This document shows positions 1-63,661 of a stretch of 64,000 bases of DNA, piece after piece. Numbering within the stretch: the stretch's first letter is position 1; each line of letters starts with the position of its first letter. Position numbers and translations under genes: made by a program. This DNA is from Saprospirales bacterium. Lineage in GTDB: Bacteria > Bacteroidota > Bacteroidia > Chitinophagales > Saprospiraceae. The notes beneath the pieces are model-generated. The model did no database searches. It was given only the letters and a program-made list of their open reading frames with translations, and was not told the origin of the DNA. The stretch lies in contig JADJBL010000009.1 of the NCBI GenBank assembly GCA_016703765.1, positions 1 to 64,000 on the forward strand. Direction: 5' to 3'.

Positions 1-536
1 CCCCTTCCCCTCACCTTCTTCCCCCTCCCCGTCAACGCCACATCCTCAAACGCCAGTTCCACCCCTTCCAGCCGCTCCAGCTCCGGCCGCTTGTGCGGTG
101 TGAGGATGACGAGCTGCGGTGCGCAGCGAAACAAGGCCTGCACGAGGGGGTAGAGCTGTTTTTCGGGACACAGGTGCATCGCAAAACTGCAAATGACGGC
201 GGAGTAACTGCCCTGGAGCTTGCCCTGGATCACATCCTGAAAAGACCAGGATAGGCAGGGACGGCCGAGGTTGGCCTCGAAAAGGGATTGGGTGTAGGGG
301 TCGCAGCCCTCGCTGTGGTCGAAGCCGAGCTCCCGGAGCACCAGGCTCACCTCCCCGCCGCCGCAACAGAAATCGAGGACATGCGAGTAGTCGATGCGGT
401 GGACGTTGTTGCGCAGCAATTCGCGCACCTGCGGGAAATGCGGGTTTGCATACTCCTCCCCGTGGAGCCGATAATACGCCTCGACGCCGAGTTCGCTATA
501 TAAATTGCGAATGCCTTTGGAAGTATCCCCCTTCAA
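1..536 (-). CDS. class I SAM-dependent methyltransferase, 3' end cut by window edge
   Basis: The minus strand reads openly from about 536 to base 1. It contains a Rossmann motif I of the form VLDFCCGGGEVSLVL, followed by EGCDPY and SAVICSFAMHLCPE, the usual SAM-binding and post-motif regions of small methyltransferases. The N-terminus GIRNLYSELGVEAYYRLHG is also typical of these proteins. No ATG is available: an in-frame TAG lies directly upstream of a TTG at 536-534, so TTG is the most likely start. The substrate cannot be inferred. It lies 30 bp downstream of mlaD on the same strand, and the gap consists of AACTTTTC repeat units. The C-terminus runs off the window. Confidence 0.75.
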   Translation of the reverse strand, partial: MKGDTSKGIRNLYSELGVEAYYRLHGEEYANPHFPQVRELLRNNVHRIDYSHVLDFCCGGGEVSLVLRELGFDHSEGCDPYTQSLFEANLGRPCLSWSFQDVIQGKLQGSYSAVICSFAMHLCPEKQLYPLVQALFRCAPQLVILTPHKRPELERLEGVELAFEDVALTGRGKKVRGR

Positions 537-563
537 CTATAAACTTTTCAACTTTTCAACTCT
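534..563. repeat. short-unit tandem repeat, AACTTTTC family (degenerate copy)
   Basis: Two to three AACTTTTC units (period 8 bp) fill the gap between the methyltransferase start and the mlaD stop. Only one arm is clear. The same unit recurs near 14.8, 25.0, 55.8 and 62.95 kb. Confidence 0.6.
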
Positions 564-14600: not shown

Positions 14601-14775
14601 AGAGGTTGGGCGAGCCGGAAACCCCCGCTACGGCGCAAGAACGCCCGCCGCGGTAGGGGCCGAGTTCGCGCCATTCGAGGGAGTGGAAGTAGGAGGTGTC
14701 GTATGGGAGGCTGGAGCGCTGGGCCTGGACAGAAGCCGCGGCGCATAGTAAAAGCAAGGGTAGAAGCAGTTTCAT
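11683..14775 (-). CDS. secreted sortilin/VPS10-like BNR beta-propeller protein
   Basis: About 1030 aa. Signal peptide (MKLLLPLLLLCAAASVQAQ), then two tandem seven-bladed-propeller-like halves made of repeated YxSxDGGxTW Asp-box motifs: VWRTTTGGRSW, IWKSEDAGKTW, VFRSRDGGKTW, IYKSTDGGTKW, LFRSDDAGKTW, YHRSTDGGRTF. A C-terminal region of about 300 residues follows (PGEYYVKMKTG and helices). These proteins are widely annotated as glycosyl hydrolases in Bacteroidota, but I see no catalytic assignment beyond the fold. No T9SS C-terminal domain is evident. ATG 14775 is preferred over TTG 14790 because it starts the signal peptide. Confidence 0.85.
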   Translation of the reverse strand: MKLLLPLLLLCAAASVQAQRSSLPYDTSYFHSLEWRELGPYRGGRSCAVAGVSGSPNLFYFGATGGGVWRTTTGGRSWENISDGYFGGSIGAIAVSESDPNVIYVGGGEQTVRGNVSFGYGIWKSEDAGKTWKQMGLTDSRHIGRIRIHPENPDIVYVAAMGNLFAPNEERGVFRSRDGGKTWEKILFIDNEVGAVDLCFDPSNWRILYATTWRVRRTPYSLSSGGDGSGIYKSTDGGTKWDTLSKAQGMPKGPLGIIGVAVSPANPNRVWAMIEAPEGGLFRSDDAGKTWSRLNGDRSLRQRAWYYTRIYADPKDADIVYVLNVNYHRSTDGGRTFSDFNSNHGDHHDLWIAPEDPTRMIVGDDGGAQITYDRGETWTTYHNQPTAQFYRLTTDNHFPFRIYAAQQDNSAIRIAHRNSGTGLSEDDWEHTAGCECGWLAVDPNDDEIVYGGCYGGYIERKDHRDDLSRSVNVWPDNPIGHGAESMKYRFQWNFPILFSKHDPKKLYTASNHLHVTTNGGESWQTISPDLTRNDSSRLGSSGGPITQDNTSVEYYCTIFALAESPLNGDVLWTGSDDGLIHLTRDQGRSWVNVTPKNLPEWAQINSIEADPFEEGGLYVAATRYKSGDFKPYLFRTKDFGKTWKQMNEGIGPEQFTRVVRADPKRKGLLYCGTESGIFASFDDGANWQSLQLNLPIVPITDLAVKDEHLIAATQGRSLWIIDDLTLLHQLSDRHKEKALALFKPKDSYRMGGFQVKKPQGAGTNHAGGVMVHFYLPEWNEKDSLHLSFHEADGKLIRSYQTAPKEKADKITVRKGANRFVWNLRYPDGKDFDGMIFWSGSLRGPRAIPGEYYVKMKTGAFLDSMRFRILADPRSPATPEDFRAQLDFTRGVLDKVSEAHEVILEIRDIKGQLGHYTGRLKGREGVEPLIKQAGLIDSLLTKVEETLYQTKNQSGQDPLNFPIRLTNKLAHLNSLTQGDYPPTQQALEVREELSRAIDEQLTLFRNIKENEIAAFNRMMREKEVEAVILKE

Positions 14776-14803: not shown

Positions 14804-14908
14804 AGTTGAAAAGTTGAAAAGTTGAAGAGTTCAAAGGAGGCCTTTTTGGCAAAGCCAAAAAGGCCTTAATAAACTTTTCAACTTTTCAACTTTTCAACTC
14901 TTCAACTC
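14804..14908. repeat. inverted tandem-repeat element, AGTTGAAA family, nested around a second palindrome
   Basis: Left arm: about three AGTTGAAA units. Right arm: four AACTTTTC units ending TTCAACT. Between them sits a second perfect hairpin (GGCCTTTTTGGC-aaa-GCCAAAAAGGCC). The element lies just upstream of the start of the propeller gene, in a gap with no gene on the minus strand. The remainder of the gap to 15119 shows no clear coding. Confidence 0.75.
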
Positions 14909-17408: not shown

Positions 17409-17489
17409 AGGTTTAGAAAGTTTAGAGAGTTTAGGAGGTTTAGTTTTTTATCCCTCTAAACCTTCTAAACTCTCTAAACCTCCTAAACC
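17409..17489. repeat. inverted tandem-repeat element, GGTTTAGAA family
   Basis: Left arm of four 9-bp units (GTTTAGAAA, GTTTAGAGA, GTTTAGGAG, GTTTAG), a T-rich loop, then a right arm of four CTAAACYYY units. The right arm ends 7 bp before the ATG of the DUF4403 gene. It sits between two divergent genes, so a terminator role is unlikely here. Confidence 0.8.
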
Positions 17490-17496
17490 ATAAAAA

Positions 17497-18849
17497 ATGA
17501 AAACTCCCTGCCTCTTTTTTCTGTTCACCCTTTGTACAATACCATCTGTCTGGACTATGTCCGAACCCGACACGACTGTTATCCCTCCGATCCCCTTATC
17601 GGTCATCGAAATACCGGTGCGGCTGCACCGTACGCAGTTGCAGGCAGATATCAACCGGCAACTGGGCGATACCCTTTTCAACGACAAAAATGCCGACGGA
17701 GAAAACCTGGAGATACTGGCCCGGAAAGCTTCTGAAATCGAGATACAGCTCACCGGGCAGGAGATCTTTTACAAGGTACCGCTCGATTTGTCGGTGCGCA
17801 AAAAAATGCGCCTGGCCAACCTCCAAGGCGCCGGGGCCATCACCCTGAATTTCAAGACCCGTTACCAGATCCTCGCTGACTGGAGCCTCGAAACCCATAC
17901 CGAACTGGTCGATTTTCAGTGGATTAAAAAGCCCGTGCTCAAGACCTCCGTCATCGACATCCCCCTCCAGTTTGTGGCAGACATCGTGATCAAAAAGAGC
18001 CGCAAAAAGCTGACCTCCGCCATCGACGAACAGGTGAAGGCCAATCTGGACCTCCGCAAAGAGGTCAATTCGGCCTGGAACATGCTGCACGAGCCTTTCC
18101 TCCTGTCGGAAGAATACGCCACCTGGATGGTCATGCGCCCCAAGTCGATCTATATGACCCCCTTCCAGACCGATTTCGACACAGTCCAGAGTGTCATCGG
18201 CATGGAATCCGAGCTCATCGTGTTACTCGGCGAGGAGCCGGCAGCGGGCATGCCGGGGATATTGCCGGCCCTGGAATGGCGAAAGAACGACAACAAGGGG
18301 TTTTCGCTCAGCCTTCAGGCCGATATCCCCTATGTGGAAGCCGAGCGCCTGGCCCGCGAAGGCATGGTCGGCCAGCGCTTCGAGCAGGGAAAAAAGCGCT
18401 ACGTGGTGGTCGAAGACCTGAAATTGTTCCGGCAAGGCGACAAACTGGTCGTGCAGACCTTTCTCTCCGGCTCCTACAAGGGCGCCATCAACTTATTGAG
18501 CACCCCGGTCTATTCCGAAGCAAAAGGCAAGATCGAGCTCGACGACATGGACATCGAACTGAAGACCAAAAACCTGCTGCACAAGACCCTGGGCTGGCTT
18601 TTCAAAGGGGTGTTCAAGAACGAGATCCGCAAGAGCCTGGATCATTACCTCAATTTCTACCTCGATCAAACCAAAAAGACGCTCCAGGAGGAATTGAAAG
18701 ACGTAGAAGTCGCTCCCGGCATTCAGCTTCGTGGCCAGCTCTCCCGCCTCGGTGTAGACCATATTTTCCTCACCCCCGACGCCATGCGGCTCTGGATCGG
18801 CATGAAAGGAGAGATCGAGGTGGATGTGGATGGGCTTTCTTTTAAGTAG
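17497..18849 (+). CDS. DUF4403 family protein
   Basis: 450 aa. Signal peptide-like N-terminus (MKTPCLFFLFTLCTIPSVWT) followed by a long beta-rich protein with repeated segments LPLSVIEIPVRLHRTQLQADIN, KAKGKIELDDMDIELKTKN and a C-terminal GIQLRGQLSRLGVDHIFLTPDAMRLWIGMKGEIEVDV. These match the DUF4403 family of Bacteroidota and Proteobacteria, whose tubular lipid-binding-like folds have unknown function. ATG start 7 bp after the repeat element. Probably exported. It is followed by a HAD gene across another repeat element. Confidence 0.8.
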   Translation: MKTPCLFFLFTLCTIPSVWTMSEPDTTVIPPIPLSVIEIPVRLHRTQLQADINRQLGDTLFNDKNADGENLEILARKASEIEIQLTGQEIFYKVPLDLSVRKKMRLANLQGAGAITLNFKTRYQILADWSLETHTELVDFQWIKKPVLKTSVIDIPLQFVADIVIKKSRKKLTSAIDEQVKANLDLRKEVNSAWNMLHEPFLLSEEYATWMVMRPKSIYMTPFQTDFDTVQSVIGMESELIVLLGEEPAAGMPGILPALEWRKNDNKGFSLSLQADIPYVEAERLAREGMVGQRFEQGKKRYVVVEDLKLFRQGDKLVVQTFLSGSYKGAINLLSTPVYSEAKGKIELDDMDIELKTKNLLHKTLGWLFKGVFKNEIRKSLDHYLNFYLDQTKKTLQEELKDVEVAPGIQLRGQLSRLGVDHIFLTPDAMRLWIGMKGEIEVDVDGLSFK

Positions 18850-18935
18850 TTTAGCAGGTTTAGAAAGTTTAGGAGGTTTAGATTTTTCTGCTAAAACCCT
18901 CTAAACCTTCTAAACCTCTAAACTTTCTAAACTCA
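18850..18935. repeat. inverted tandem-repeat element, GGTTTAGAA family
   Basis: Three to four GTTTAGNAG units, a short loop with ATTTTTCTG, then four CTAAACYYY units. It fills the whole gap between the DUF4403 stop and the HAD start, ending 4-5 bp before the TTG. Confidence 0.8.
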
Positions 18936-19748: not shown

Positions 19749-19821
19749 GATCTCGTAGCTCAGTCGGTAGAGCACTTGACTTTTAATCAAGGGGTCCTGG
19801 GTTCGAGTCCCAGCGGGATCA
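19749..19821 (+). tRNA. tRNA-Lys (anticodon TTT)
   Basis: 73 nt cloverleaf. Acceptor GATCTCG pairs with CGGGATC (one G-T wobble), D arm GCTC/GAGC, anticodon stem CTTGA/TCAAG with loop CTTTTAA giving anticodon TTT, T arm CTGGGTTCGAGTCCCAG, discriminator A. CCA is not encoded. Confidence 0.97.
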
Positions 19822-19839: not shown

Positions 19840-19911
19840 GGTCCCGTAGTACAACGGATAGTATGTAGGTTTCCGGAACCTAAGATCATGGTTCGATTCC
19901 ATGCGGGACTA
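19840..19911 (+). tRNA. tRNA-Arg (anticodon CCG)
   Basis: 72 nt cloverleaf. Acceptor GGTCCCG/CGGGACT (first pair G-T), D stem GTAC/GTAT, anticodon stem TAGGT/ACCTA with loop TTCCGGA giving CCG, T arm CATGGTTCGATTCCATG, discriminator A. CCA not encoded. Confidence 0.95.
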
Positions 19912-21180: not shown

Positions 21181-21196
21181 TTGTTATATTTTTTTG

Positions 21197-21277
21197 TGAC
21201 TAGTGATTAGTGACTGGTGACTAGTATTTTGGTCACTAGTCACTAGTCACTAGTCACTAATCACCAGTGACCAGTCA
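21197..21277. repeat. inverted tandem-repeat element, GTGACTA (7-bp) family
   Basis: Left arm GTGACTA-GTGATTA-GTGACTG-GTGACTA, loop TTTT, right arm of TCACTAG units ending TCACTA. It fills the gap from just upstream of the DUF4412 start to the PLD stop codon. Confidence 0.8.
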
Positions 21278-22984
21278 CTAATCCATTCCCGCATACACCT
21301 GCCGCTCCCTGAACTTATAGCTCCGGGCGGTTTCTTTATACGAAGTATTGCTCCAGGAGCCATCGCCTTTGAGCAGCATTTGGGCTTTTTCTTCGGCTTT
21401 GCTGGCGGTTCGGTTGGCGTAGATGGTATTGATAAAAGCGCGGTTTTTATAGTGTTCCCACATCCGGACGAATTCGGTGGTGACGATAGCGGCCAGTCGC
21501 TGGTCGCCCTCGATGATCAAGAAATTCTCGTCGTTTTTCGTGCAGGCCTCGTCGCTGAAATTGCCGGTGCCGACAATGACCACGGGGTTTTCGCCCCAGG
21601 GGTCGGTCACAAGGCTCTTGGTGTGTATTTTGTGGCTGCCGAAGGCCTTGGCGTCCCAGTCCCGGCCCATGTAGGTCTCCAGACGGCTGGGGGTGAAGAA
21701 GCGGGTGTAGCGGGAATTGAGTCCTTCGATCTTCTTCCTGGCGGTAGTATTGCAGAGCCCGTACTCGATGATCTGCTGGGAGTTGTCGCCCAGGGCTTTG
21801 AGCAGGGCGTTGTCCAGGGCAAAGGGGGTGCTCATGAACAGGGCGCTCTTCGCCTTGGAGATGTATTCGGCCGTATAGTCCAGCAGGTGATCCGTGCTGA
21901 CGGGTGAGAAATTGACCTTCCAGTTTTTTTTGCTCAGATTCTTTTCCGCCTCCAAAATGAGTTTTTCGATTGTCGCCTTGTTGGGGTTGTTTCTCCCGCC
22001 GCAATCCGGGTCGGTTTTCATCAACTGATAATAGGCTTCGTAGGCCTCGGCCGTGGGGCCGTGCGACAATTGCAGGGCCATATTGGTCTGCAGGTAGAAA
22101 CCGGCGAAGGTGAAATTACAGGTGCCGGTCCAAACGGTATGGGGCTTGCCTGCTTTGAGGTAAATCAGGAATTTGTTGTGGCTGATATTCAGGGTTTTCT
22201 CCCTGGCGAAAGTGTTGTTTTGCAACTCGTGTTCGGCAATCATGTGCAGGTTTTCCTCCCTGGCCTTCCCGGTGCTCCCACTGCCTTTTTTGGCGTGAAA
22301 GGCGATCCCGACATCCACTCCTCTTAATACGGCGCTCCGAAGGGCAGCGGCGACGTCGTGGTCTTCGAATTCGTAGATGCAGATATGGAGCCCGTCGCCC
22401 TTGGCGGCGCCCTTGATGATTTCGAGGAGGGATTCCTTCAAGCCGCGGGAAAGCCAGGTTTGGGCTTCGCTGTCGTCCTGCGGATTAACGCTATTGAATC
22501 GCTCCTGATAGGCCATGGTGGAGGTGACGCCCCGGTTGGTATAGACGCCCCAATCGCCGACATGGGGCTGGCTGGGGCGGATATGGAGCTGGAGGGCTTC
22601 CTCCCGGCGCATGTTTTTTGGGTCGCCCCAGTAGGGCATGATCTCGTAGAGGTAGCTCCGGTTGGGGCTCACGCTGTAGTCGCTCCAGTTGAAGCGCTGG
22701 AGCGGGGCGTTGTAGGTCGAAATACTGGGCCCATAGTCCTTGTCCATCTGGTGGGAAAAGCGCTTGTTTCCGTAAAACCACTCGCTGCGGATCATTTTGC
22801 CGCTCAGCAGGTCGTAGTCCGTACGCCGGATGCCGAATCCGAGCATGTCTTTTCGGTCCAGTTTCTCGTCGAGGCTCCAGCCCAGTAATACGGAATTGAC
22901 ACCCACCAGCGCCGCGCCTGTGAGTTTGCCATCGGAGGTTTTTGCACGCACGACGGGCTTATAGGATTTTGCAATCGGACTCAT
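21278..22984 (-). CDS. phospholipase D-like (PLDc) domain protein
   Basis: 568 aa. N-terminal Ig/fibronectin-like region (residues about 1-165), then two PLD half-sites. First: SHNKFLIYLKAGKPHTVWTG (HxK present; no Asp at the usual D position). Second: KIHTKSLVTDPWGENPVVI with a full HxKxxxxD, followed by GTGNFSDEACTKNDENFLI, the conserved GTxN / D-E-N-F segment. PLD proteins form a phosphohistidine intermediate and may cut phospholipids or nucleic acids; here substrate is unknown. No signal peptide, so cytosolic. ATG start. It has no neighbour that would make it a defence nuclease. Confidence 0.85.
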   Translation of the reverse strand: MSPIAKSYKPVVRAKTSDGKLTGAALVGVNSVLLGWSLDEKLDRKDMLGFGIRRTDYDLLSGKMIRSEWFYGNKRFSHQMDKDYGPSISTYNAPLQRFNWSDYSVSPNRSYLYEIMPYWGDPKNMRREEALQLHIRPSQPHVGDWGVYTNRGVTSTMAYQERFNSVNPQDDSEAQTWLSRGLKESLLEIIKGAAKGDGLHICIYEFEDHDVAAALRSAVLRGVDVGIAFHAKKGSGSTGKAREENLHMIAEHELQNNTFAREKTLNISHNKFLIYLKAGKPHTVWTGTCNFTFAGFYLQTNMALQLSHGPTAEAYEAYYQLMKTDPDCGGRNNPNKATIEKLILEAEKNLSKKNWKVNFSPVSTDHLLDYTAEYISKAKSALFMSTPFALDNALLKALGDNSQQIIEYGLCNTTARKKIEGLNSRYTRFFTPSRLETYMGRDWDAKAFGSHKIHTKSLVTDPWGENPVVIVGTGNFSDEACTKNDENFLIIEGDQRLAAIVTTEFVRMWEHYKNRAFINTIYANRTASKAEEKAQMLLKGDGSWSNTSYKETARSYKFRERQVYAGMD

Positions 22985-23106: not shown

Positions 23107-23163
23107 CCGCCTGCGCTTTCGCTTCGGCGGGCGCAGAAAACTGAAAACTGAAAACTGAAAACT
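23107..23163. repeat. palindrome plus ACTGAAAA tandem repeat at a gene start
   Basis: CCCGCC...GGCGGG hairpin followed by four copies of the 8-bp unit ACTGAAAA (23139-23163), running directly into the coding sequence of the 23148 gene. Single-armed member of the short-unit repeats. Confidence 0.65.
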
Positions 23164-24944
23164 CCCTAATCGCCTGGCTGCTATGCTGCGCCCTCCTCGT
23201 CGGCGCCGCCTGCTGGTACCCAAAATGGTCCATCCCGGCCACGGAGGCGACCATCAGTTGGGATGTGAGCGGATACTACTGGTATTTGCCGGCCTACCTG
23301 ATCTACCAGGACCCTGTGCACATGGAGTTCAAGGACGAGATCCTCAAAAAATATATACCCACCTGGGACCTCTACCAGGCCTTTCCCTACGGCGAAGGTT
23401 ATGTGATGAAATACTCCCTCGGCCTGGCCCTCCAGTACCTTCCGTTTTTCGCGATCGGCCACATCTGGGCCTTGGGTAGCGACTATCCGGCCGACGGTTT
23501 TTCGCTTCCCTACCAGGTCGCCATCCACTGGGGAAGCCTGTTGGTGGCCTTCCTGGGCCTATGGGTCATGCGGCTCAACCTCCGGCGCTTTTTTTCGGAT
23601 ACCATTTCGGCCATCACCCTACTGGGGATCGGTATCGGTACCAATTACTTCAACTACGCCTCCGTCGATGCGGCGCTTTCGCATAATTACCTTTTTACCC
23701 TATACAGTCTGCTGATCTATGCCACGATCCGGTGGCATGAAAAGCCCGGCAGGGGGCTGAGCCTGGCCATCGGGGGCTTGGTTGGCCTGGCCGCCCTGAC
23801 CCGTCCGACGGACTTGCTCTGTGTCCTGATCCCCCTGTTGTGGGGTTGGGATGGTGGAAAAACCGGCTTTCCTTGTTTGGAAAGCAATGGCAAAAACTTC
23901 GCCCTGGCAGCCCTGGCGGCGGCTCTGGTCGGCTCCCTGCAACTCTTTTACTGGAAAAGCGTTTCCGGCGAATGGGTGGTCTATTCCTATCAGGATCAGG
24001 GTTTTAACTTTCTAAAACCGCATTTGGCGGATGTGTTCCTCTCGTATAAAAAAGGCTGGCTGGTTTACACTCCGATCATGGTCCTGGCCCTGTTGGGCAT
24101 CCCGCTTCTCCTTCGAAAAAAGGGTTTGTTTTGGTTGACGCTGATCTTTTTGGTCCTCAACTTCTGGATCGTTTCTTCCTGGGAGGTGTGGTGGTATGGC
24201 GGGAGTTTCGGGCAACGGGCCATGGTGCAATCCTACGCCCTGCTCGCCTTTCCCATGGCGGCCTTCTCCGAATGGGCCTGGAAGAAGGGGTGGAGCAGGA
24301 TGCTGTTTCTGACCTTCGCCCTGTTCTGTATCGCGCTCAACCTGTTTCAGACCTGGCAGGCCCGCGGCGAAGGGGGCTTCGACCCGGAAAACATGAACAA
24401 GGCCTATTACTGGCACATATTTTTCAACCCCCGGGTCACGGAAGAAGACCACCTGATCCTCGACTCCGACGAGCGGCCTTTCCGGAAAAAGGCCGAGGTG
24501 GAAACCCTGTTTTTCAGGAATTTCGAAAGCCCCGGCCCCGACTCCCTGCATATCAGCCGCGATACGGCCTTTCGGGGCAGTTTTCCAGCGAAGATCGAGC
24601 CCCTGACGAACAGCGTCATTTACTCCATCCCTTTCTCCTCCGACATGCGTGGCAAGCGCATCGGACTTCGCCTGAGCGGCCGCTTTTTCGGATATAAAAA
24701 GGAGTGGGATATCTGGAAAATGGGGCAGTTGCACCTGGCCTTCGCCCTGGAGGGCACAACCCTGCGCGACAAGCTGGTGCGCGTGCCCCGCCTGATGAAA
24801 TCCAGGCATTGGGTGGAGATCGGCGCCGATTTTCATTTCCCCGAAGAACCCTTTGACGAAATTCGCCTTTACTTTGCGAATCCCTCCGAGGTCAAAACGG
24901 TCTATATCGATGACCTGAAGCTGGAGGTTTTTGCAGGCAAATAG
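23148..24944 (+). CDS. GT39-like membrane glycosyltransferase / mannosyltransferase family
   Basis: About 598 aa if started at CTG 23148. Around ten hydrophobic segments and a soluble C-terminal domain. The first loop contains ISWDVSGYYWYLPAYLIYQDP, the catalytic-Asp region of GT-C glycosyltransferases. No ATG/GTG/TTG lies upstream of GTG 23265, yet the frame stays open and encodes a hydrophobic helix (SLIAWLLCCALLVGAACW) before the catalytic loop. CTG 23148, inside the ACTGAAAA repeat, would give MKTENSLIAWLL. GTG 23265 is the conservative start but would delete the first helix. Followed by a second GT39-like gene. The lipid-linked donor and acceptor are unknown. Confidence 0.7.
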   Translation: MKTENSLIAWLLCCALLVGAACWYPKWSIPATEATISWDVSGYYWYLPAYLIYQDPVHMEFKDEILKKYIPTWDLYQAFPYGEGYVMKYSLGLALQYLPFFAIGHIWALGSDYPADGFSLPYQVAIHWGSLLVAFLGLWVMRLNLRRFFSDTISAITLLGIGIGTNYFNYASVDAALSHNYLFTLYSLLIYATIRWHEKPGRGLSLAIGGLVGLAALTRPTDLLCVLIPLLWGWDGGKTGFPCLESNGKNFALAALAAALVGSLQLFYWKSVSGEWVVYSYQDQGFNFLKPHLADVFLSYKKGWLVYTPIMVLALLGIPLLLRKKGLFWLTLIFLVLNFWIVSSWEVWWYGGSFGQRAMVQSYALLAFPMAAFSEWAWKKGWSRMLFLTFALFCIALNLFQTWQARGEGGFDPENMNKAYYWHIFFNPRVTEEDHLILDSDERPFRKKAEVETLFFRNFESPGPDSLHISRDTAFRGSFPAKIEPLTNSVIYSIPFSSDMRGKRIGLRLSGRFFGYKKEWDIWKMGQLHLAFALEGTTLRDKLVRVPRLMKSRHWVEIGADFHFPEEPFDEIRLYFANPSEVKTVYIDDLKLEVFAGK

Positions 24945-25012
24945 TTGAAAAGTTGAAGAGTTGAATAGTTTATGGAATTCAACTTTTCAACTTTTCAACT
25001 TTTCAACTCTAA
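24944..25012. repeat. inverted tandem-repeat element, AGTTGAAA family
   Basis: AGTTGAAAAGTTGAAGAG units, a central TTTATGGAATT, then AACTTTTC units ending TCAACTCT. It begins at the stop codon of the first GT39-like gene and ends 4-8 bp before the ATG of the second, filling the gap. Confidence 0.85.
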
Positions 25013-25016
25013 ACCA

Positions 25017-28764: not shown

Positions 28765-30195
28765 ATGACCAGATTATTTTTCATCATCCTGATAATAGGA
28801 GGCTACCTGGCTTCCGGCAGCGCCCAATCACCCGGCTGGGCCGACGAATTGCTCAACCGCTACGACCGCTACAAGGAGAAGTCTATCGAGGACCGGCGCT
28901 TCAAGCACGCGGAAATGGCGCCCTTTATCACGGGCCTTTCCGGACGTTCGTGTTTTGAGGTGAAAGAACGCGGCAAATCGATCGAAGGCCGTCCCATCTA
29001 TCTGGTCAAGTATGGAGACGGGCCTGTGAAGGTGTTGCTCTGGTCCCAGATGCACGGGGATGAGCCGACCGCCACGATGGCCTTGCTCGACCTGTTCAAT
29101 TTCCTCAAGGCCGATGACGAATACAACGATTTGAGGGCCTTGATCCGGAAAGAGCTCACCCTGTATGTTCTGCCGATGCTCAACCCCGACGGGGCCGAGT
29201 CTTTTCAGCGCCGCAATGCCATCGACGTCGATATCAACCGCGACGCCCTGAGGCTGCAAACTCCTGAGGGCAAGCTCCTCAAGAAGATCCGCGACGAGGT
29301 CGATGCCGAATGGGGATTCAACCTCCACGACCAGTCGAAATACAACTCCGTGGGTACCACCTCAGGGGAGGCCACCTTCTCCTTTCTGGCCCCCGCCTAC
29401 GACGAGGAAAAAAACATCAACGAGGTCCGGAAGAATGCCATGCAGATGATCTCCGGCCTCAATCGCTGGCTCCAGCAATACATTCCCGGCCAGGTCGGCC
29501 GCTTTGACGACACCTTCGAGCCGCGGGCTTTCGGCGACAATATGCAGAAATGGGGCACCCGCACCATCCTCATCGAATGCGGAGGAATGGACGGCGACCC
29601 CGAAAAGCAGAAGATACGCAGATTGCATTTCGGGCTCTTCCTGGTTGCCTTCGACGCCATCGCCCGAAAATCGTACGAGGCCCAATCCATCCAATCCTAC
29701 CAGGAACTCGACTACAACAACCGCCGGCTTTTCGACCTCCTGATCCGCGACGCCAAGCTCGTGGAAAACGGGAAGAGCTACACCATGGACCTGGCCTTTT
29801 CCAGAAATGAAAACCATATCAACTCCAGCCGCAACTTCTATTACAGCAGCTCCATCAGCGACATGGGCGATCTCTCCACCCACAATGCCTACGAGGAGTT
29901 GTTCGCATCCGGATATACCATCGAGCCCGGCAAGACCTACCCCAGCGTGGTATCCAGCTACTCAGCCCTGAAGAACATGAATTTCAAGGACCTGCATAGC
30001 CAGGGTTATACCGATGTCAAACTGAGCAATCTTCCCGAAAAGAAGGACACCGACCGCCTTCCCTTTCGGGTGCACGCCTCTAACGCCAAAACCCCGAAAA
30101 ACAAGGTCCGCATCGGAGAGAACCCCTCCTTTTTCCTGGTCCGGGACGGAAAAAAGGAGTATGTGGTCGTGAATGGGTTTTTGTATAAAATGTAG
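28765..30195 (+). CDS. secreted M14-family zinc carboxypeptidase
   Basis: 476 aa. Signal peptide (MTRLFFIILIIGGYLASGSAQ). Zinc ligands in SQMHGDEPTA (HxxE) and FNLHDQSKYN (His), substrate-binding NRDA after DVDI, and catalytic Glu in TILIECGGMDG. All of the M14 catalytic set is visible. A C-terminal extension of about 140 residues follows (LDYNNRRLFDLLIRDAKLVE...), commonly seen in Bacteroidota M14 proteins. Peptide substrate unknown. ATG start; the stop codon lies at the edge of an inverted-repeat element. Confidence 0.88.
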   Translation: MTRLFFIILIIGGYLASGSAQSPGWADELLNRYDRYKEKSIEDRRFKHAEMAPFITGLSGRSCFEVKERGKSIEGRPIYLVKYGDGPVKVLLWSQMHGDEPTATMALLDLFNFLKADDEYNDLRALIRKELTLYVLPMLNPDGAESFQRRNAIDVDINRDALRLQTPEGKLLKKIRDEVDAEWGFNLHDQSKYNSVGTTSGEATFSFLAPAYDEEKNINEVRKNAMQMISGLNRWLQQYIPGQVGRFDDTFEPRAFGDNMQKWGTRTILIECGGMDGDPEKQKIRRLHFGLFLVAFDAIARKSYEAQSIQSYQELDYNNRRLFDLLIRDAKLVENGKSYTMDLAFSRNENHINSSRNFYYSSSISDMGDLSTHNAYEELFASGYTIEPGKTYPSVVSSYSALKNMNFKDLHSQGYTDVKLSNLPEKKDTDRLPFRVHASNAKTPKNKVRIGENPSFFLVRDGKKEYVVVNGFLYKM

Positions 30196-30277
30196 AGACG
30201 CGATTAATCGCGTCTCCGCCCAGAAACGCAATGTTTTGCGAAAGCATAACAGAGACGCGATTAATCGCGTCTCTACA
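30191..30277. repeat. 87-bp inverted-repeat element with two perfect GAGACGCGATTAATCGCGTCTC palindromes
   Basis: Each end is a 22-bp perfect palindrome (GAGACGCGATT and complement); the whole element is itself inverted (TGTAGAGACGCG ... CGCGTCTCTACA). A small CGCAA/TTGCG hairpin lies in the middle. It occupies the convergent gap between the M14 gene and the PCS-like gene. GTAGAGACGCG-type palindromes are common dispersed repeats in bacteria. Confidence 0.85.
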
Positions 30278-40643: not shown

Positions 40644-40722
40644 GGTTTAAAAGGTTTAGGAGGTTTAGAAAGTTTAGTTTTACCTCCTCTAAACCTCCTA
40701 AACTTCCTAAACCTCCTAAACT
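40644..40722. repeat. inverted tandem-repeat element, GGTTTAGAA family
   Basis: GGTTTAAAA-GGTTTAGGA-GGTTTAGAA-AGTTTAG left arm, TTTTACCTC loop, right arm of CTAAACCTC-type units ending CTAAACTA directly before the ATG at 40724. Confidence 0.85.
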
Positions 40723-47399: not shown

Positions 47400-47474
47400 G
47401 GGTTTAGAAAGTTTAGGAGGTTTAGGAAGTTTAGAAAAAACTAAACCTCCTAAACCTCCTAAACATTTTAAACT
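47400..47474. repeat. inverted tandem-repeat element, GGTTTAGAA family
   Basis: GGTTTAGAA-AGTTTAGGA-GGTTTAGGA-AGTTTAG, AAAAAA loop, CTAAACCTC units. It fills the convergent gap between the S41 and TsaC stops and could act as a two-way terminator here. Confidence 0.85.
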
Positions 47475-53403: not shown

Positions 53404-53671
53404 ATTCAACCGCTTCGCGGTTGTTAAAACACCTCGTTTTTACCCCCGATTGCATCGGGGGCTATGAATATTTAACCCTTTCAGGGTTTGTTGCGTTTTT
53501 CTCCAATTGCATCGGGGGCTATGAATATTTAACCCTTTCAGGGTTTGTTGCGTTTTTTCTACAATTGGACCAGCAATTTTATCAATCCCGGAGGGATTCA
53601 ACATTCATAGCCCCGGATGAAATCCGGGGGCCGAGGGAATTAATACGAAACAACCGCGAAGCGGTTGAATT
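53404..53671. repeat. composite MITE-like element of nested palindromes with terminal inverted repeats
   Basis: Ends: ATTCAACCGCTTCGCGGTTG (53405) and its inverted copy CAACCGCGAAGCGGTTGAAT (53651). Inside: a 52-bp direct repeat present twice (53449-53500, 53506-53557) containing GGGGCTATGAAT and the palindrome AACCCTTTCAGGGTT, then TCCCGGAGGGA and CCCCGGATGAAATCCGGGG, with an inverted ATTCATAGCCCC. No ORF. This explains the 53370-53702 gap; palindromes of this kind are associated with REP-type mobilisation in Bacteroidota. Confidence 0.8.
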
Positions 53672-55837: not shown

Positions 55838-55892
55838 AGTTGAAAAGTTGAATAGATGAAAAGTTGAGCTTTTCACTCATTCAATTTCTCTT
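55838..55892. repeat. degenerate inverted tandem repeat, AGTTGAAA family
   Basis: GAGTTGAAAAGTTGAATAG-ATGAAAAGTTGA left arm, weaker TTTTCACTCATTCAATTTC right arm. Eroded copy in the gap before the GWxTD gene. Confidence 0.55.
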
Positions 55893-55922
55893 ATTTTCTG
55901 ATAGTGAAATGGTTACATTATC

Positions 55923-58955: not shown

Positions 58956-59903
58956 ATGTGGCAATACTCCTTTCTCGCAATCCCCGTTTTTTCCTTGCTC
59001 CTGGCGGGTTGCCAGGCTACCCCGCCCGATAGCGCAAACGGCAAGATCCGGATCGTCAGTACCACCGGCATGATCGGCGACGCAGTGGCGAAGATCGCTG
59101 GCGATAGGGCAGAGGTGAGCGCCTTGATGGGGCCTGGCGTCGACCCGCACCTGTACAAGGCCTCCCAGGGCGACCTCCGGAAACTCAGCGAAGCAGACCT
59201 CATTTTTTACAACGGCCTCCACCTCGAAGGCAAAATGGTAGAGATCCTCGAAAAAGTGGGAAAAACCAAACCCGTCTTCGCCGTAGCCGAAGGACTGGAC
59301 CATAGCAAAATTCTCCAACTCGCCGGGCAGGCCGAGGTCCACGACCCGCATATCTGGTTCGACGTGCGGATGTGGGCGGATGTGGCGACCTACATCGGCG
59401 CCAGCCTGGAAAAACACGACGCCCCCCACGCCGCAGCATACCGCCAACGCGCCGCGGCCTACCGAGATTCGCTGCTCGCCCTCGACGAATGGGTGCGCAG
59501 CGAACTGAGCACCGTGCCGAAAGACCATCGGGTGCTCATCACCGCCCACGACGCTTTCGCCTATTTCGGCAGGGCCTACGAGGTGGAGGTCAGAGGCCTC
59601 CAGGGCATCTCTACCGTGTCGGAATACGGGCTCAAAGACGTGTCCGACCTCGTCAGCTTCATTTCCCAACGAAAGATCAAAGCGGTATTCGTCGAAAGCT
59701 CCGTGCCCACCAAATCGCTGGAAGCGGTGGTCGAAGGCTGCCAAAAACGTGGCCACAAAGTGACCATCGGCGGCACCCTGTATTCGGACGCCATGGGGCA
59801 GGCCGGCACGCCCGAAGGAGAATACATCGGAATGGTGCGCGCCAACGTGCGCACGATCGTTCACGCCTTAAAAGGAGAAAGCCATGCCGAAGTCAGCCGT
59901 TGA
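58956..59903 (+). CDS. troA: metal-binding lipoprotein of a Mn/Zn ABC importer (TroA-like)
   Basis: 315 aa. Lipoprotein signal with SLLLAGC lipobox. Cluster A-I solute-binding protein with metal ligands in GPGVDPHLYK (His), VHDPHIWFDV (His), ITAHDAFAYF (His) and GTLYSDAMGQ (Asp). The His-His-His-Asp set is that of TroA (the Mn-type MntC/PsaA has Glu at the third position). Captures Mn2+ or Zn2+ in the periplasm for the permeases downstream. ATG start. Overlaps the ATPase gene by 20 bp. Confidence 0.92.
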   Translation: MWQYSFLAIPVFSLLLAGCQATPPDSANGKIRIVSTTGMIGDAVAKIAGDRAEVSALMGPGVDPHLYKASQGDLRKLSEADLIFYNGLHLEGKMVEILEKVGKTKPVFAVAEGLDHSKILQLAGQAEVHDPHIWFDVRMWADVATYIGASLEKHDAPHAAAYRQRAAAYRDSLLALDEWVRSELSTVPKDHRVLITAHDAFAYFGRAYEVEVRGLQGISTVSEYGLKDVSDLVSFISQRKIKAVFVESSVPTKSLEAVVEGCQKRGHKVTIGGTLYSDAMGQAGTPEGEYIGMVRANVRTIVHALKGESHAEVSR

Positions 59904-60672
59904 AGTACACAACCTCACCGTCAGCTATAGCCAGCGCCCCGTGCTGTGGGACGTCGATTTTTCGCTCCCCGAAGGCAAGCTGATCGCCATAGTCGGGCCC
60001 AACGGATCGGGCAAGACCACCTTGTTGAAAAGTATCATGGGCCTCACCCCGATGAGCGGCGGCTTCGTCCGGATATTCGACCAGCCCCTCGACGAGGTGC
60101 GCAGTCAGGTGAGCTACGTGCCGCAGCGGGAATCGGTCGACTGGGACTTTCCGGCCCGGGTGCGCGATGTGGTGCTCATGGGCCGCTACCGCCCGAAAAA
60201 CCTGCTCAGCCGCCTGAGCAAAACGGATCGCGAAGTCGCCGATTGGGCGCTCGATCAGGTGCGGATGAGGGAATTTTCCCAAAGGCAGATCTCCCAGCTC
60301 TCGGGCGGGCAGCAACAGCGGGTGTTCATCGCCCGCTCCCTGGCGCAACAAGCCAAATTGTACCTCATGGACGAGCCCTTTGCCGGGGTGGACGCCGCCT
60401 CCGAAAGGGCTATCCTCGACCTGCTGATGCAATTGAAAGAAAGCGGCAAGACCCTGCTGATCGTGCACCACGACCTGAACACCGTGCGCCAGTACTTCGA
60501 CTGGGTGGTATTAATGAATACCCGCCTGGTAGCCGCCGGTCCGGTGGAAGAAGTATTTACCGACGCCAACCTGCAGGCGGCATACGGCGGGCAGCTCACC
60601 GTGTTGTCCAAAGTGGCCGACCGGGTGAAGGAAGGCGGATTTCCCGTTCGGGAGAAGAAAGTAAAAAGCTGA
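59884..60672 (+). CDS. troB: ATP-binding subunit of the Mn/Zn ABC importer (TroB-like)
   Basis: 262 aa. Walker A GPNGSGKTTLLKS, Q-loop YVPQRESVDWDFP, signature LSGGQQQRVFIARSLAQ, Walker B KLYLMDEPFAGVD, H-loop VHHDL. The QRESVDWDFP segment is the metal-ABC-ATPase hallmark. Energises uptake. ATG overlaps the troA stop; 2 bp to the permease. Same operon. Confidence 0.95.
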   Translation: MPKSAVEVHNLTVSYSQRPVLWDVDFSLPEGKLIAIVGPNGSGKTTLLKSIMGLTPMSGGFVRIFDQPLDEVRSQVSYVPQRESVDWDFPARVRDVVLMGRYRPKNLLSRLSKTDREVADWALDQVRMREFSQRQISQLSGGQQQRVFIARSLAQQAKLYLMDEPFAGVDAASERAILDLLMQLKESGKTLLIVHHDLNTVRQYFDWVVLMNTRLVAAGPVEEVFTDANLQAAYGGQLTVLSKVADRVKEGGFPVREKKVKS

Positions 60673-60674: not shown

Positions 60675-61958
60675 ATGAACAACCTGCTCCAATTCTTATC
60701 CCTGTCTGATCCCAACGTGCGGATGGTGGTGCTGGGCGCCACCCTGCTGGGGGCCGGGGCGGGACTGGTGGGGGTTTTCACCCTGCTCCGCAAGCGGGCG
60801 CTTTTGGGCGACGCGGTGGCGCACTCCATCCTCCCCGGCGTCTGTCTGGCCTTTATGGTCGGCCAAAGCAAAAACCCCTTCGTCCTGCTGCTGGGCGCCC
60901 TGATTGCGGGCTGGCTTTCCCTGCTCGCCATGGACTATCTCGTGCGCCGCACCAAGCTCAAGGCCGATGGCGTCATCGGGCTGGTGTTGAGCGTGTTTTT
61001 CGGGCTGGGCATCTGGTTGCTGACCATCATTCAGCAATCCGGCGCCGCCAGCCAGAGCGGCCTGGATAAATTTTTATTCGGAAAAGCCGCCTCGATCACC
61101 AGCCAGGATGTGAATATGTTCACCTGGGTGGTGCTGGGCCTGGTGCTCGTCCTGCTGCTGTTTTACAAAGGATTCAAGCTCATCGCCTTCGACCAGGACT
61201 TTGCCCGCTCGGTCGGCATGCCGGTCCGGCTGTTGGAATTCCTGCTGTCGACCATCACCGTGCTGTCCATCGCCGTGGGCATTCAGGCCGTAGGCGTTGT
61301 GCTGATGGCCTCCCTATTGATCGCCCCCGCCGCCGCTGCGCGATACTGGACCGACCGGCTGTCGGTCATGCTCTTGCTGGCTGCCGGGATGGGCATCATC
61401 GCCGCCTGGTCGGGCGCTTATGTGTCCTTTGCGGCGCCTTCCATGCCCACAGGCCCCTGGATCGTCATGGCGCTGGCCTTGCTGACCGGTATTTCCATGC
61501 TCTGGGCGCCCAAACGGGGCATCCTCGGCCGCAGCCTTCGACAATGGCGATACGCCCGTAAGATTGCCCTTGAAAACGTGCTCAAGATTCTTTTTCAATT
61601 GGAAGAAAGAAGCGGGATGGCCGGCAAGGGGTATTCCCGGGTGAGTATCCTGGAACACCGCGAGATCGAGCCCGGCCCGCTGAATATGGTGCTGCGACGC
61701 TTAAAACGCAAGGCCTGGGCCACGGAAATCAATTCCCTGTGGCGCCTCACAGAAGAAGGCCTCACAGAAGCCAGACAAATCGTGCGCCGCCACCGGCTCT
61801 GGGAATTATACCTCCACGAAAGGCTCAATTTGCCTGCCGACCACGTGCACCCCGGCGCCGAAGCCATGGAGCACTTACTGACCCCCGAACTGGAAGAAGC
61901 CCTGCAACGCGACCTCGGCTATCCGGTTACGGATCCGCATCAGAGCCCTATTCCTTAA
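60675..61958 (+). CDS. troC: metal ABC permease fused to a DtxR-like domain (TroC-like)
   Basis: 427 aa. Residues 1 to about 285: eight-TM permease of the ABC-3 family (LLGAGAGLVGVFTLLRKRALLGDAVAHSILPGV, GVVLMASLLIAPAAAARYWTD). Residues about 300-427 are a DtxR-like region: ENVLKILFQLEE, HREIEPGPLNMVLRRLKRKAWATEINSLWRLTEEGLTEA (winged helix), RRHRLWELYLHERLNLPADHVHPGAEAMEHLL (dimerisation and metal-site region). Such permease-DtxR fusions occur in Bacteroidota. The true start is ATG 60675; a longer upstream reading frame overlaps troB and is spurious. Confidence 0.9.
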   Translation: MNNLLQFLSLSDPNVRMVVLGATLLGAGAGLVGVFTLLRKRALLGDAVAHSILPGVCLAFMVGQSKNPFVLLLGALIAGWLSLLAMDYLVRRTKLKADGVIGLVLSVFFGLGIWLLTIIQQSGAASQSGLDKFLFGKAASITSQDVNMFTWVVLGLVLVLLLFYKGFKLIAFDQDFARSVGMPVRLLEFLLSTITVLSIAVGIQAVGVVLMASLLIAPAAAARYWTDRLSVMLLLAAGMGIIAAWSGAYVSFAAPSMPTGPWIVMALALLTGISMLWAPKRGILGRSLRQWRYARKIALENVLKILFQLEERSGMAGKGYSRVSILEHREIEPGPLNMVLRRLKRKAWATEINSLWRLTEEGLTEARQIVRRHRLWELYLHERLNLPADHVHPGAEAMEHLLTPELEEALQRDLGYPVTDPHQSPIP

Positions 61959-61962
61959 TCAT

Positions 61963-62058
61963 TGAGTGATTGGTGATTGAGTGATTGAGTGAGAGGAAAA
62001 AATCACTCAATCACTCAATCACCAATCACTCAATGGCTCACTCACTCAATCACTCAAT
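61963..62058. repeat. inverted tandem-repeat element, GATTGAGT (8-bp) family, 31-bp perfect arms
   Basis: Left arm of ATTGAGTG / ATTGGTG / ATTGAGTG / ATTGAGTG units, loop GAGGAAAAAA, and a right arm that is the exact reverse complement over 31 bp. Extra CACTCAAT units continue to 62058, just before the ATG of troD. It fills the troC-troD gap. Confidence 0.9.
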
Positions 62059-62061: not shown

Positions 62062-62931
62062 ATGGATGCATTCTGGATCATCCTCACCGGCGCCCTTGTC
62101 GCCTTGTGTTGCGGCCTCTTGGGCAGCTTTTTACTCCTCCGGCAAATGGCTATGGTGGGCGACGCTATTTCCCACGCCGTGTTGCCGGGTATCGTGATCG
62201 CCTTTTTGCTGTCCGGCTCGCGGGATTCCATTCCCATGCTGGCGGGGGCGGCTGTGCTGGGCGTATTTGCCACGGTCCTGATCGAATGGCTGCACCGGGT
62301 GGGGCGCATGCAGTCGGATGCCTCGATCGGCTTGTCGTATACCACTTTATTTGCCATCGGCATCATCCTCATTTCGCTGTTCACGCGGCAGGTGGACCTC
62401 GACCAGGACTGCGTCCTGTACGGAGAGATCGCCTACGTGCCGCTGGACCTGTGGATCCTGGCCGGGGGGCAGTCCCTCGGTCCGCGGGCGGTGTGGATAT
62501 TGGGCGGCGCTTTTGTGCTGATCCTTACCTTTGTGCTGGTGGGATACAAGGGGCTGCAACTGACTACGTTTGACCCCGCTTATGCCGCCACGCTGGGCAT
62601 TTCCACCTTTTTCTGGCACTACGCCCTGATGGGCACCGTGTCGATGGCCACGGTGGTGTCGTTCGAGTCGGTAGGGGCCATCCTGGTGGTCGCCTTCCTG
62701 ATCGTGCCGCCCGCCACAGCCTATTTGCTGACCGACCGTTTGCCTGTGATGTTGGGATTGTCGGCCCTGTTCGGGCTCCTTTCCTCCATCCTGGGCTATG
62801 TCATGGCCGCTGCCACCAACGGTTCGGTGGCCGGCGCGATGTCGGTGGCGGCGGGGATCTGGTTTGTGCTGGCGCTTGCGTTTGTTCAGGTAAAAAAGTC
62901 TATACTCCGTTCCCAAAGCGTCTCCCGATAG
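62062..62931 (+). CDS. troD: second metal ABC permease (TroD-like)
   Basis: 289 aa, eight TM helices of the ABC-3 family: LLGSFLLLRQMAMVGDAISHAVLPGIVIAFLLSG, then VSFESVGAILVVAFLIVPPATAYLLTDRLPVML. Pairs with TroC as a heterodimeric channel. Only the fusion partner differs. ATG follows the repeat element. Same operon. Confidence 0.92.
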   Translation: MDAFWIILTGALVALCCGLLGSFLLLRQMAMVGDAISHAVLPGIVIAFLLSGSRDSIPMLAGAAVLGVFATVLIEWLHRVGRMQSDASIGLSYTTLFAIGIILISLFTRQVDLDQDCVLYGEIAYVPLDLWILAGGQSLGPRAVWILGGAFVLILTFVLVGYKGLQLTTFDPAYAATLGISTFFWHYALMGTVSMATVVSFESVGAILVVAFLIVPPATAYLLTDRLPVMLGLSALFGLLSSILGYVMAAATNGSVAGAMSVAAGIWFVLALAFVQVKKSILRSQSVSR

Positions 62932-62949: not shown

Positions 62950-62985
62950 GACTCTTCAACTTTTCAACTTTTCAACTTTTCAACT
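62950..62985. repeat. tandem repeat AACTTTTC (single arm)
   Basis: Four CTTTTCAA units ending TCAACTAATTTCC directly before the ATG at 62993. Right arm only; the left side is the troD-stop hairpin. Confidence 0.7.
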
Positions 62986-62992: not shown

Positions 62993-63661
62993 ATGCATTC
63001 CCAGATCGAAGAAAACTATCTCAAAGCCATTTTCAACCTTTCGGTAGAAGAGGAAGGCAAGGCCGTCAGCACTTCCGCGCTGGCGCGGGAACTGGACGTT
63101 CAGGCCGCCTCGGTGACCGATATGATCAAAAAGCTGGCCGTCAAGGGCCTGATCGAATACGAAAAATACCAGGGCGTGATGCTCACTGCCCGCGGCCGTA
63201 CGGTGGCGGTGGACATCGTGCGGAAGCACCGGATCTGGGAGGTATTTCTTTCGGAGAAACTGGGCTTCAACTGGAGCGAGGTGCACGATATTGCGGAGCA
63301 ACTCGAACATATTCAATCCGAAGAGCTCATCAGCCGCCTGGACGATTTTTTGGGCAACCCCGCTTTCGATCCCCACGGAGGCCCCATTCCCGACAAAAAA
63401 GGCAGACTGCCGGACCGGAACATCGTATTGTTGTCGTCCCTGCCGGAAAAAAGCGAAACGGTGGTCGCTGGGGTGAAAGACGATGCCAAGGAGTTGCTTC
63501 AATACCTGGAGCAGGTGGGGTTGCTGATCGGCGCCCGCATTCGCATCCTGGAGCGCATGGCCTTCGACGATTCGATGGTGCTGGAATCTCCCTCCGGAAA
63601 GATCTCCATTTCCAGCAAAGTGGCCGACAATTTGATGGTTCGGCCACCCAAGGCGGAGTGA
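62993..63661 (+). CDS. DtxR/MntR-family metal-dependent repressor with FeoA-like C-terminus
   Basis: 222 aa. N-terminal winged helix (ENYLKAIFNLSVEEEGKAVSTSALARELDVQAASVTDMIKKLAVKGLIEYEKYQGVMLTARG), dimerisation/metal region with RKHRIWEVFLSEKLGFNWSEVHDIAEQLEHIQSEEL, then PHGGPIPDKKG, and a C-terminal SH3/FeoA-like domain (VGLLIGARIRILERMAFDDSMVLESPSGKISISSKVADNLMV). Corepressor would be Mn2+ or Fe2+. It is the last gene of the tro operon and probably binds the TTTAGAC/CTAAA dyads upstream. ATG start. Confidence 0.93.
   Translation: MHSQIEENYLKAIFNLSVEEEGKAVSTSALARELDVQAASVTDMIKKLAVKGLIEYEKYQGVMLTARGRTVAVDIVRKHRIWEVFLSEKLGFNWSEVHDIAEQLEHIQSEELISRLDDFLGNPAFDPHGGPIPDKKGRLPDRNIVLLSSLPEKSETVVAGVKDDAKELLQYLEQVGLLIGARIRILERMAFDDSMVLESPSGKISISSKVADNLMVRPPKAE

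Follow-up and report, generated by a model that had tools for sequence, protein, structure and literature searches.

Results

The Element in the Metal-Transport Cluster

The window analyzed here, i.e., the whole 64-kb stretch of DNA, contains a metal ABC-transporter cluster in which the space separating two ABC-3 permease genes is taken up by an inverted pair of short-unit arrays. The features of this region are as follows.

59884-60672: ATP-binding protein gene of the metal ABC-transporter cluster
60675-61958: gene in which an ABC-3 permease is joined to a DtxR-type domain for metal binding and dimerisation (Fe_dep_repr_C)
61960..62058, no strand: element with GATTGAGT units in both arms
62062-62931: ABC-3 permease gene, downstream of the element
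62993-63661: complete DtxR/MntR-type regulator gene of the same cluster

The regulator at 62993 is a complete DtxR/MntR-type protein and stands in this cluster alongside the permease with the fused Fe_dep_repr_C domain (60675-61958). The arms of the element (61960-61992 and 62003-62035) are 33 bp long and 100% complementary and enclose a 10-nt loop, in agreement with the perfect arms described in an earlier note on this DNA. An irregular 7-bp unit, GATTGGT, is present in both arms and is mirrored. Equal numbers of units in the two arms had also been claimed; the arms are in fact unequal in this respect, because extra C-strand units extend to 62058. These are unpaired in the plus-strand RNA fold (−58.4 kcal/mol, z −10.6; minus strand, −61.4 kcal/mol, z −11.1) and belong to the final 26 nt ahead of the ATG, all of which remain unpaired. 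The stop codon lies 1 nt upstream of the element and the ATG at 62062 lies 3 nt past the last unit. The paired stem stops approximately 25 nt short of this ATG, which only the unpaired extra units reach.

No repeat was seen by eye ahead of the permease start in five Saprospiraceae-type relatives (loci L001, L014, L028, L053, and L066), where the end of the upstream gene, again judged by eye, appears to be no more than a few tens of bases away. A periodic inverted repeat was found in this gap in none of 30 loci of the order, one of which (L317) holds a single ordinary inverted repeat. Since none of the 30 order loci has it and these relatives show no repeat, the element is most simply read as having been gained in the lineage of the window. 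In 27 Pontibacter loci, the 300 nt ahead of the permease were also inspected: an array was found in five (L003, L010, L024, L029, and L030), a periodic inverted repeat in one (L013), and an ordinary one in another (L044). The L010 array carries the AATCACTC word of the window, and the L013 word is close to AATCACTC.

Periodic Inverted Repeats in the Window

A strict detector was used, which sought the inverted repeat first (arm of at least 18, identity of at least 0.85, spacer of at most 150) and then required an arm period of 6–12; it replaced an earlier detector that needed a tandem array in both arms and gave only 4 elements in the window. Of 12 inverted repeats detected, 8 were periodic, starting at 14804, 17410, 18856, 21199, 24943, 40654, 47402, and 61960. 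Ten dinucleotide-preserving shuffles of the window gave 0 periodic and 1 other inverted repeat. The units are 7–9 bp long, stand head to tail between genes as in short-unit tandem arrays, and are built on the words AGTTGAAA, GGTTTAGAA, GTGACTA, GATTGAGT, and GAAAACT. In addition to 61960..62058, the catalogue contains the following elements and arrays.

14804..14907, no strand: AGTTGAAA element whose loop contains a further hairpin, GGCCTTTTTGGC/GCCAAAAAGGCC
17410..17489, no strand: GGTTTAGAA element in a divergent gap, 7 nt ahead of the ATG at 17497
18848..18932, no strand: GGTTTAGAA element filling a co-directional gap
21196..21283, no strand: GTGACTA element with a longer 3' arm
24943..25008, no strand: AGTTGAAA element overlapping the stop of 23265-24944, with the ATG at 25017 8 nt on
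40644..40721, no strand: GGTTTAGAA element in a co-directional gap, with the ATG at 40724 2 nt on
47402..47473, no strand: GGTTTAGAA element in a convergent gap, 6 and 16 nt from the stops
55838..55895, no strand: degenerate AGTTGAAA element, seemingly two-armed, under the strict threshold
534..561, minus strand: one-armed AACTTTTC array, its G-strand 5 nt past the stop of 567-1586
23136..23163, no strand: one-armed GAAAACT array in a divergent gap
62951..62985, plus strand: one-armed C-strand AACTTTTC array, 7 nt ahead of the ATG of the regulator gene 62993-63661

The description as one plan executed with several unrelated unit words was borne out by the 8 periodic inverted repeats, in every one of which (8/8) a single unit family is common to both arms, as the earlier note had stated. 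Its count of at least ten two-armed elements was reduced to 8 strict ones and the degenerate one at 55838, which is set apart because it falls under the detection threshold; the arrays at 534, 62951, and 23136, the last absent from its list, are one-armed. For six of the eight strict elements, RNA folding gave energies between −33 and −61 kcal/mol, with z between −6 and −11. At gathering score, Rfam 15 gave no match to any element; its sole matches in the window were two tRNAs, and it gave nothing in four stretches of the related genome G194 described below. These two tRNA genes adjoin each other on the plus strand (19749-19821 and 19840-19911).

The 18848 element overlaps the stop of 17497-18849 and ends 7 nt ahead of a called TTG start at 18940, and that at 21196-21283 reaches the minus-strand gene 21278-22984 at its stop end. 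Arrays ending within about 10 bp of a start codon, as previously claimed, were verified at 17410 (7 nt), 18848 (7 nt), 24943 (8 nt), 40644 (2 nt), 61960 (3 nt, by its unpaired units), and 62951 (7 nt). The loop of the 24943 element contains an in-frame ATG (24972-25017), from which translation could run through the C-arm array and so add an N-terminal extension.

Three further repeat structures were observed in the window. A 57-bp tandem duplication (53449-53567, 96% matches) with GGGGGCTATGAATATTTAACCCTTTCAGGGTT has an inverted partner just downstream (53584-53623), and the whole (53449-53623) looks like a different, non-periodic palindrome. An array with a 9-bp period (16540-16646) lies inside the minus-strand gene 15407-17317 and would encode a three-residue repeat. 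A nested palindrome at 30191-30277 has 26-bp perfect arms, each containing the palindrome GAGACGCGATTAATCGCGTCTC.

Occurrence in Other Genomes

A related finished genome, taken as Haliscomenobacter hydrossis (G194), was sampled as 60 stretches of 20 kb (1.2 Mb) placed by coordinate and independent of hits. It gave 72 periodic inverted repeats, a density of 6.0 per 100 kb, besides 173 others, while one shuffle per stretch, again 1.2 Mb, gave 0 and 1, respectively. The unit order differs from element to element. In 27 Pontibacter loci 14 periodic elements were found (2.5 per 100 kb), so that the family, proposed on the window alone and pursued here by an inverted-repeat search of relatives, is present in several genomes.

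The density is 12.5 per 100 kb in the window, 10.0 in 40 kb of G214 (stretches chosen by hits), 2.5 in 200 kb of G176 (six of ten stretches chosen by hits), 1.3 in 150 kb of the plasmid pHALHY01, and 0.7 in the other 53 Bacteroidota loci. No periodic inverted repeat was detected in 149 kb of G001, 200 kb of G211, 50 kb of E. coli, or 50 kb of a Trichormus plasmid. G200 (100 kb) and G177 (60 kb), both chosen by AACTTTTC hits, gave one-armed arrays only and 0 periodic inverted repeats. The AACTTTTC array is patchy, as a match with at most one mismatch was found in 24 of 396 genomes of the order, and a few of these have dozens. Contigs of related assemblies were observed to stop in or beside element gaps (L172 in G299; L176 and L159 in G408), and draft genomes therefore probably under-count the elements. 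The elements are real, numerous in some lineages, lineage-specific, and rule-bound.

Placement Relative to Stops and Starts

Genes of G194 were called by using our own hexamer gene caller. Of its 72 elements, 45 lie in co-directional, 19 in convergent, and 5 in divergent gaps, and 3 lie at a stretch edge. Gaps of at least 60 bp numbered 388, 91, and 136 in the same order, so that divergent gaps are depleted (p = 0.003) and convergent ones enriched (p = 0.009). The 45 co-directional elements begin at a median of 4 nt from the stop (35 within 20 nt) and end at a median of 29 nt from the next start (18 within 20 nt), and 15 lie within 20 nt of both. In 15 of the 19 convergent cases both stops are at most 20 nt away. 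On pHALHY01, a plasmid with RefSeq annotation, the two elements are separated from a stop by 12 and 14 nt. Ordinary G194 hairpins were found at a median of 27.5 nt from the stop, so the periodic elements are closer (p = 3e-6); distance alone differs, as the preference for the stop over the start is no stronger (closer to the stop in 34/45 elements versus 77/106 ordinary hairpins).

The one-armed arrays were examined in the same co-directional gaps. Those with the G-strand in the sense direction (n = 14) lie at a median of 1 nt past the stop, with 10 of the 14 nearer to the stop. Those with the C-strand in the sense direction (n = 14) exhibited no proximity to starts (median 119 nt; 8/14 nearer to the stop), and a placement of such arrays before starts was not borne out in G194.

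Elements between divergent genes, which had been reported as a group, were recovered clearly at 17410 and weakly at 14804 and the one-armed 23136, and such gaps are depleted in G194. The minus-strand gene 11683-14775 has its called start 28 nt from the 14804 element, whose right-hand gene is a 73-codon low-score call.

The location at 3' ends and the enrichment in convergent gaps might suggest transcription terminators of the upstream gene, acting in both directions in convergent gaps and possibly through Rho on the G-poor 3' arm. This reading is improbable. A T-tract (at least 6 T in the 10 nt past the stem) follows only 3 of the 45 co-directional elements, below the 14 of 106 for ordinary hairpins, and a canonical intrinsic terminator was rejected as a general account. 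The 61960 element, moreover, stands between two permease genes of one metal ABC-transporter cluster, where the gap of relatives is very short. The view that simple termination does not cover these elements, already taken in the earlier note, was hence upheld.

Arm Polarity and Mirrored Unit Order

The 5' arm is the G-richer one (G > C) in 89 of 103 elements overall: 8/8 in the window, 60/72 in G194 (11 fewer, 1 tie), 5/5 in G176, 4/4 in G214, and 12/14 in Pontibacter (2 ties). CAGATT words occur in 6 of the 11 G194 exceptions. In convergent gaps the elements split 16:2:1 (G-richer, fewer, tie) versus 17:16:4 for ordinary hairpins, and in co-directional gaps 36:9:0 versus 69:31:6. Hairpin-free upstream regions contain little G (0.148, versus 0.224 for C); leader composition was considered as the source of the polarity and fails to explain that of convergent gaps. 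The stop-anchored location and the rule of the G-richer 5' arm go beyond what the earlier note had described.

Mirroring of the unit order was evaluated on 58 informative elements, which gave a mean arm identity of 0.933 against 0.866 after permutation of the units. The observed order tops every permutation in 18 of the 58 and is at or below the permutation mean in 6. The arms therefore mirror each other beyond the shared unit word, as template switching would leave them, and as was anticipated in the statement that the arms look copied or corrected together; the test is a moderate one, because the detector requires arms that are at least 85% complementary and so itself favours matched arms. 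Mismatched pairs on the transcript strand of co-directional elements were G-U in 33 cases and A-C in 34; selection on RNA pairing is not visible, because G-U shows no excess over A-C. The G-arm may conceivably serve as a fail-safe stop for translation. The 5' arms of G194 close 1.31 of the three reading frames versus 0.61 for the 3' arms (1.81 and 0.87 without the 25 GTTCG-family elements). Frame closing is above that of shuffled arms for G194, for Pontibacter, and for G214 and G176 together, and not for the window.

Turnover at Orthologous Gaps

Thirteen periodic-element gaps from four G194 stretches were traced to 33 orthologous gaps in the congeners G407, G299, and G408. An inverted repeat with an arm of at least 14 is held by 20 of the 33, often with another unit family; 5 of these pass the periodic test, 13 more have arms of at least 18, and 2 have only shorter ones. 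In the remaining 13 the detector found no inverted repeat, and the element is hence dispensable at many places. These gaps measure 7, 11, 11, 17, 17, 20, 25, 37, 37, 102, and 123 bp, and two more are negative in length through start calling; the 102- and 123-bp gaps show unit-like words by eye that stay below detection. Several elements thus fill gaps that in congeners measure 7–37 bp, as within operons, which is a further point against terminators. For comparison, 3 ordinary-hairpin G194 gaps had an inverted repeat in 9 of 9 orthologous gaps and 5 repeat-less ones in 5 of 14, so that hairpin retention at the element gaps is modest.

Individual gaps show how far the sequence has changed. One convergent gap contains GTGAAAA units in G194, TGAAAAA in G408 (at a contig end), and GACGAAT in G407. 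Another contains AGCGAAA in G194, GACGAAT in G299, and a long CACAGAG/GACACAAAG hairpin in G408. A third holds a GGTTCG element in G194 and a GC-rich hairpin in three congeners, the latter being an arrangement that terminators would also give. At the gap L214:14942, a GGTTCG hairpin in G194 corresponds to a mirrored GTTGAG-type array in G176 and an unrelated long hairpin in G408, and the gap is near-empty in G299 and G407. A GAACC unit stands just ahead of the ATG in G299 and G408, with a GAACCTTG remnant nearby in G407, and the case looks like growth from a local seed. A comparison of homologous gaps had been proposed with changes of unit number and identity in mind; between these congeneric species the whole hairpin sequence is replaced or absent, beyond a change in unit number. 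Since related species differ or lack the hairpin at the same spot, the hairpin shape seems to be kept or remade while its sequence is replaced.

Two additional observations were made. A loop core, GGCTACCGC...GCGGTAGCC, recurs with different outer units (L220 10549-10753, L244, L243, L242, L232, and L176), and the G299 gap at L228 contains two elements, one nested in the other.

The turnover bears on a possible though doubtful explanation, namely that the elements are mutational by-products without function, generated by slippage and template switching and surviving wherever selection fails to purge them, namely just past stops and not in promoters. The balance of G-U and A-C pairs, the 13 gaps with no inverted repeat, and the uneven density, from 12.5 in the window and 6.0 in G194 to 0 in G001 and G211, would all be in keeping with it, and depletion from divergent gaps is expected if promoters were damaged. 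By-products would not readily account for the tight stop spacing (4 versus 27.5 nt) or the G-first polarity of convergent gaps, which ordinary hairpins do not exhibit, nor for the hairpin of unrelated sequence that congeners often hold in the same gap.

Tests of Mobility

The spacers were used to ask whether the elements share an interior. Of the 72 G194 elements, 53 have a spacer of at least 16 nt; among 172 compared spacers (periodic and ordinary repeats), 38 of the 53 are without a similar partner and 15 fall in similarity clusters. No target-site duplication was seen by eye at seven filled/empty G194 gaps, where flank divergence could hide short ones. Y1 transposases are present in all 8 genomes searched, and these include G001 and G211, where elements were not found. 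At 7 G194 Y1 loci, no periodic element occurred within approximately 1.5 kb on either side, and other inverted repeats flank 6 of them. A GTAG or CGTC tag within 6 nt of either end was found in 0/8 window and 9/72 G194 elements, against approximately 17% by chance. A REP/RAYT reading was rejected, as there is no tag enrichment, no shared consensus, and no element at the seven Y1 loci.

Mobile palindromes of REP or MITE type, spread by Y1 (RAYT-like) or another transposase and since diversified, are accordingly a very improbable source. They would accommodate the presence and absence between congeners with tight empty states, the ubiquity of Y1 transposases, the REP-like location, the one nested element, the recurring loop core, and the clustered 15 of 53 spacers; the unpartnered spacers, the seven gaps in which no target-site duplication was visible, the non-enriched tags, and Y1 loci and genomes without elements count against them. 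Ordinary transposition appears unlikely, because most loops are unrelated, no target-site duplication was seen, and the Y1 genes are without flanking elements. Beside two of the G194 Y1 loci lie GAAACCCCGAAGGGGTG palindromes (L343 2105-2305 and L344 1174-1259), which possibly form a separate REP/RAYT system with them, and palindromes similar to GAAACCCCGAAGGGGTG recur in a two-member spacer cluster elsewhere in G194.

Discussion

Comparison with Known Systems

Short-unit tandem arrays are familiar from the cyanobacterial STRR, and hairpin arms are known to be corrected by replication template switching (quasipalindrome correction). The elements described here differ from an array of direct repeats only, as mirror arms are present in the 8 window and 72 G194 elements, with one-armed arrays coexisting. 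The heptamer TAACTGA forms arrays in Beggiatoaceae, Cyanobacteria, and some Bacteroidetes (MacGregor 2015, PMC4679880). There they are direct repeats, with one indirect among 169 sets, vary by unit-step indels in one strain comparison, contain other admixed heptamers, and have no predicted RNA structure of their own; in the main genome most of them precede start codons. Both kinds are intergenic tandem units (7 bp there, 7–9 bp here) that are patchy across species, whereas ours are mirror pairs that fold and stand close after stops.

The closest parallel in location is provided by REP elements of the GTAG and CGTC superfamilies, intergenic palindromes present in many copies per genome (Di Nocera et al. 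2013, PMC3733652). As described there, they lie less than 20 bp from 3' ends, occupy unidirectional and convergent and not divergent gaps, and may supply the stop codon; they are 20–40 bp long with a family consensus and an unpaired tetranucleotide tag, and the GTAG ones are linked to RAYT transposases. Our elements likewise favour convergent and unidirectional gaps near 3' ends. Unlike REPs, they consist of short tandem arrays in which unit words and order vary and most loops differ, and they exhibit no tag enrichment, no shared consensus, and no link to RAYT that we could see.

The BrickBuilt MITE of Porphyromonas gingivalis is likewise a Bacteroidetes intergenic element joining tandem repeats and inverted ends. 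Its 23-nt units all run the same way and are bounded by small inverted ends; it occurs in 19 copies at 49–591 nt from genes and has promoter activity (PMC4596501), whereas ours are mirrored arrays at gene ends with many unit words. RNA hairpins can be generated and maintained by template switching (Monttinen and Loytynoja 2022, PMC8794818). The likeness lies in a mechanism that keeps arms matched and can make a perfect stem in one event; the abstract of that paper concerns RNA genes and does not describe short-unit arrays at bacterial gene ends. We found no published description of mirrored short-unit arrays at gene ends in a search that lay outside most of the subscription literature and so leaves their absence unproven. 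By location the elements resemble REPs, and by composition they are mirrored short-unit arrays.

Proposed Origin and Role

The common layout is a G-richer array at the stop or a few nucleotides past it, a loop, and then the mirror-image C-richer array, which comes within 20 nt of the next start in approximately one-third of co-directional cases and reaches the opposite stop in most convergent ones. The elements are stop-anchored hairpins with periodic arms, and we consider it an evenly balanced proposition that they arise by slippage and template switching and have a REP-like role at the mRNA 3' end. Replication slippage would multiply the units, and hairpin template switching would copy one arm into the other or correct it against the other; the arms could stay matched while unit words change because of this copying or correction. 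Growth may begin from a short sequence already in the gap, such as the GAACC-type unit beside the ATG in three congeners without the G194 hairpin. One unit family recurs at many places with unrelated loops, for which local slippage alone is insufficient.

By analogy with REP elements, the stem would be transcribed at the 3' end of the upstream cistron, where it probably shields the upstream mRNA terminus, uncouples the expression of adjacent cistrons, or does both. Control of expression ratios, RNase entry, and slippage within a species, put forward in the earlier note, are further candidate roles. We infer a role from the polarity rule and from an anchoring to stops that ordinary hairpins show less tightly. 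Against an RNA role stand the missing G-U bias, the few T-tracts, and the dispensability between congeners.

An effect on the downstream gene can also be predicted. Bacteroidetes initiate translation without Shine–Dalgarno pairing, and structure in the start region lowers expression (PMC3155529 and PMC6847099). In one Bacteroidetes species, a hairpin of −5.2 kcal/mol at the initiation region reduced expression five-fold, whereas strong structure is stated to leave translation uninhibited when placed 20 bp upstream (PMC3155529). In Flavobacterium johnsoniae, mRNA structure tunes initiation (PMC6847099). Since such leaders need to be unstructured, stems ending 2–9 nt from a start (17410, 18848, 24943, and 40644) should lower downstream translation. 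The permease gene downstream of the 61960 element would be spared, because the stem of this element ends approximately 25 nt before the ATG and structure 20 bp upstream is stated not to inhibit.

A broader and rather unlikely extension is that these hairpins form a genome-wide gene-end class in Bacteroidota of which shape, polarity, and stop anchoring would be inherited while the sequence is repeatedly replaced. Short seeds next to a stop or start codon would grow into arrays and be doubled into mirror arms, and preferred unit words would be spread within each genome by template switching between loci or by a dedicated enzyme. If the proposed origin is true, the elements would document in nature how hairpins arise, are corrected, and give way to others, as in the five congeneric genomes at L214:14942, with two near-empty states, two unit families, and one unrelated hairpin. 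The template-switch account of stem evolution would then become directly testable in bacteria. It would also explain how a class of Bacteroidota gene-end structures escapes searches based on sequence conservation, and unstable intercistronic hairpins of this type could retune operons between strains.
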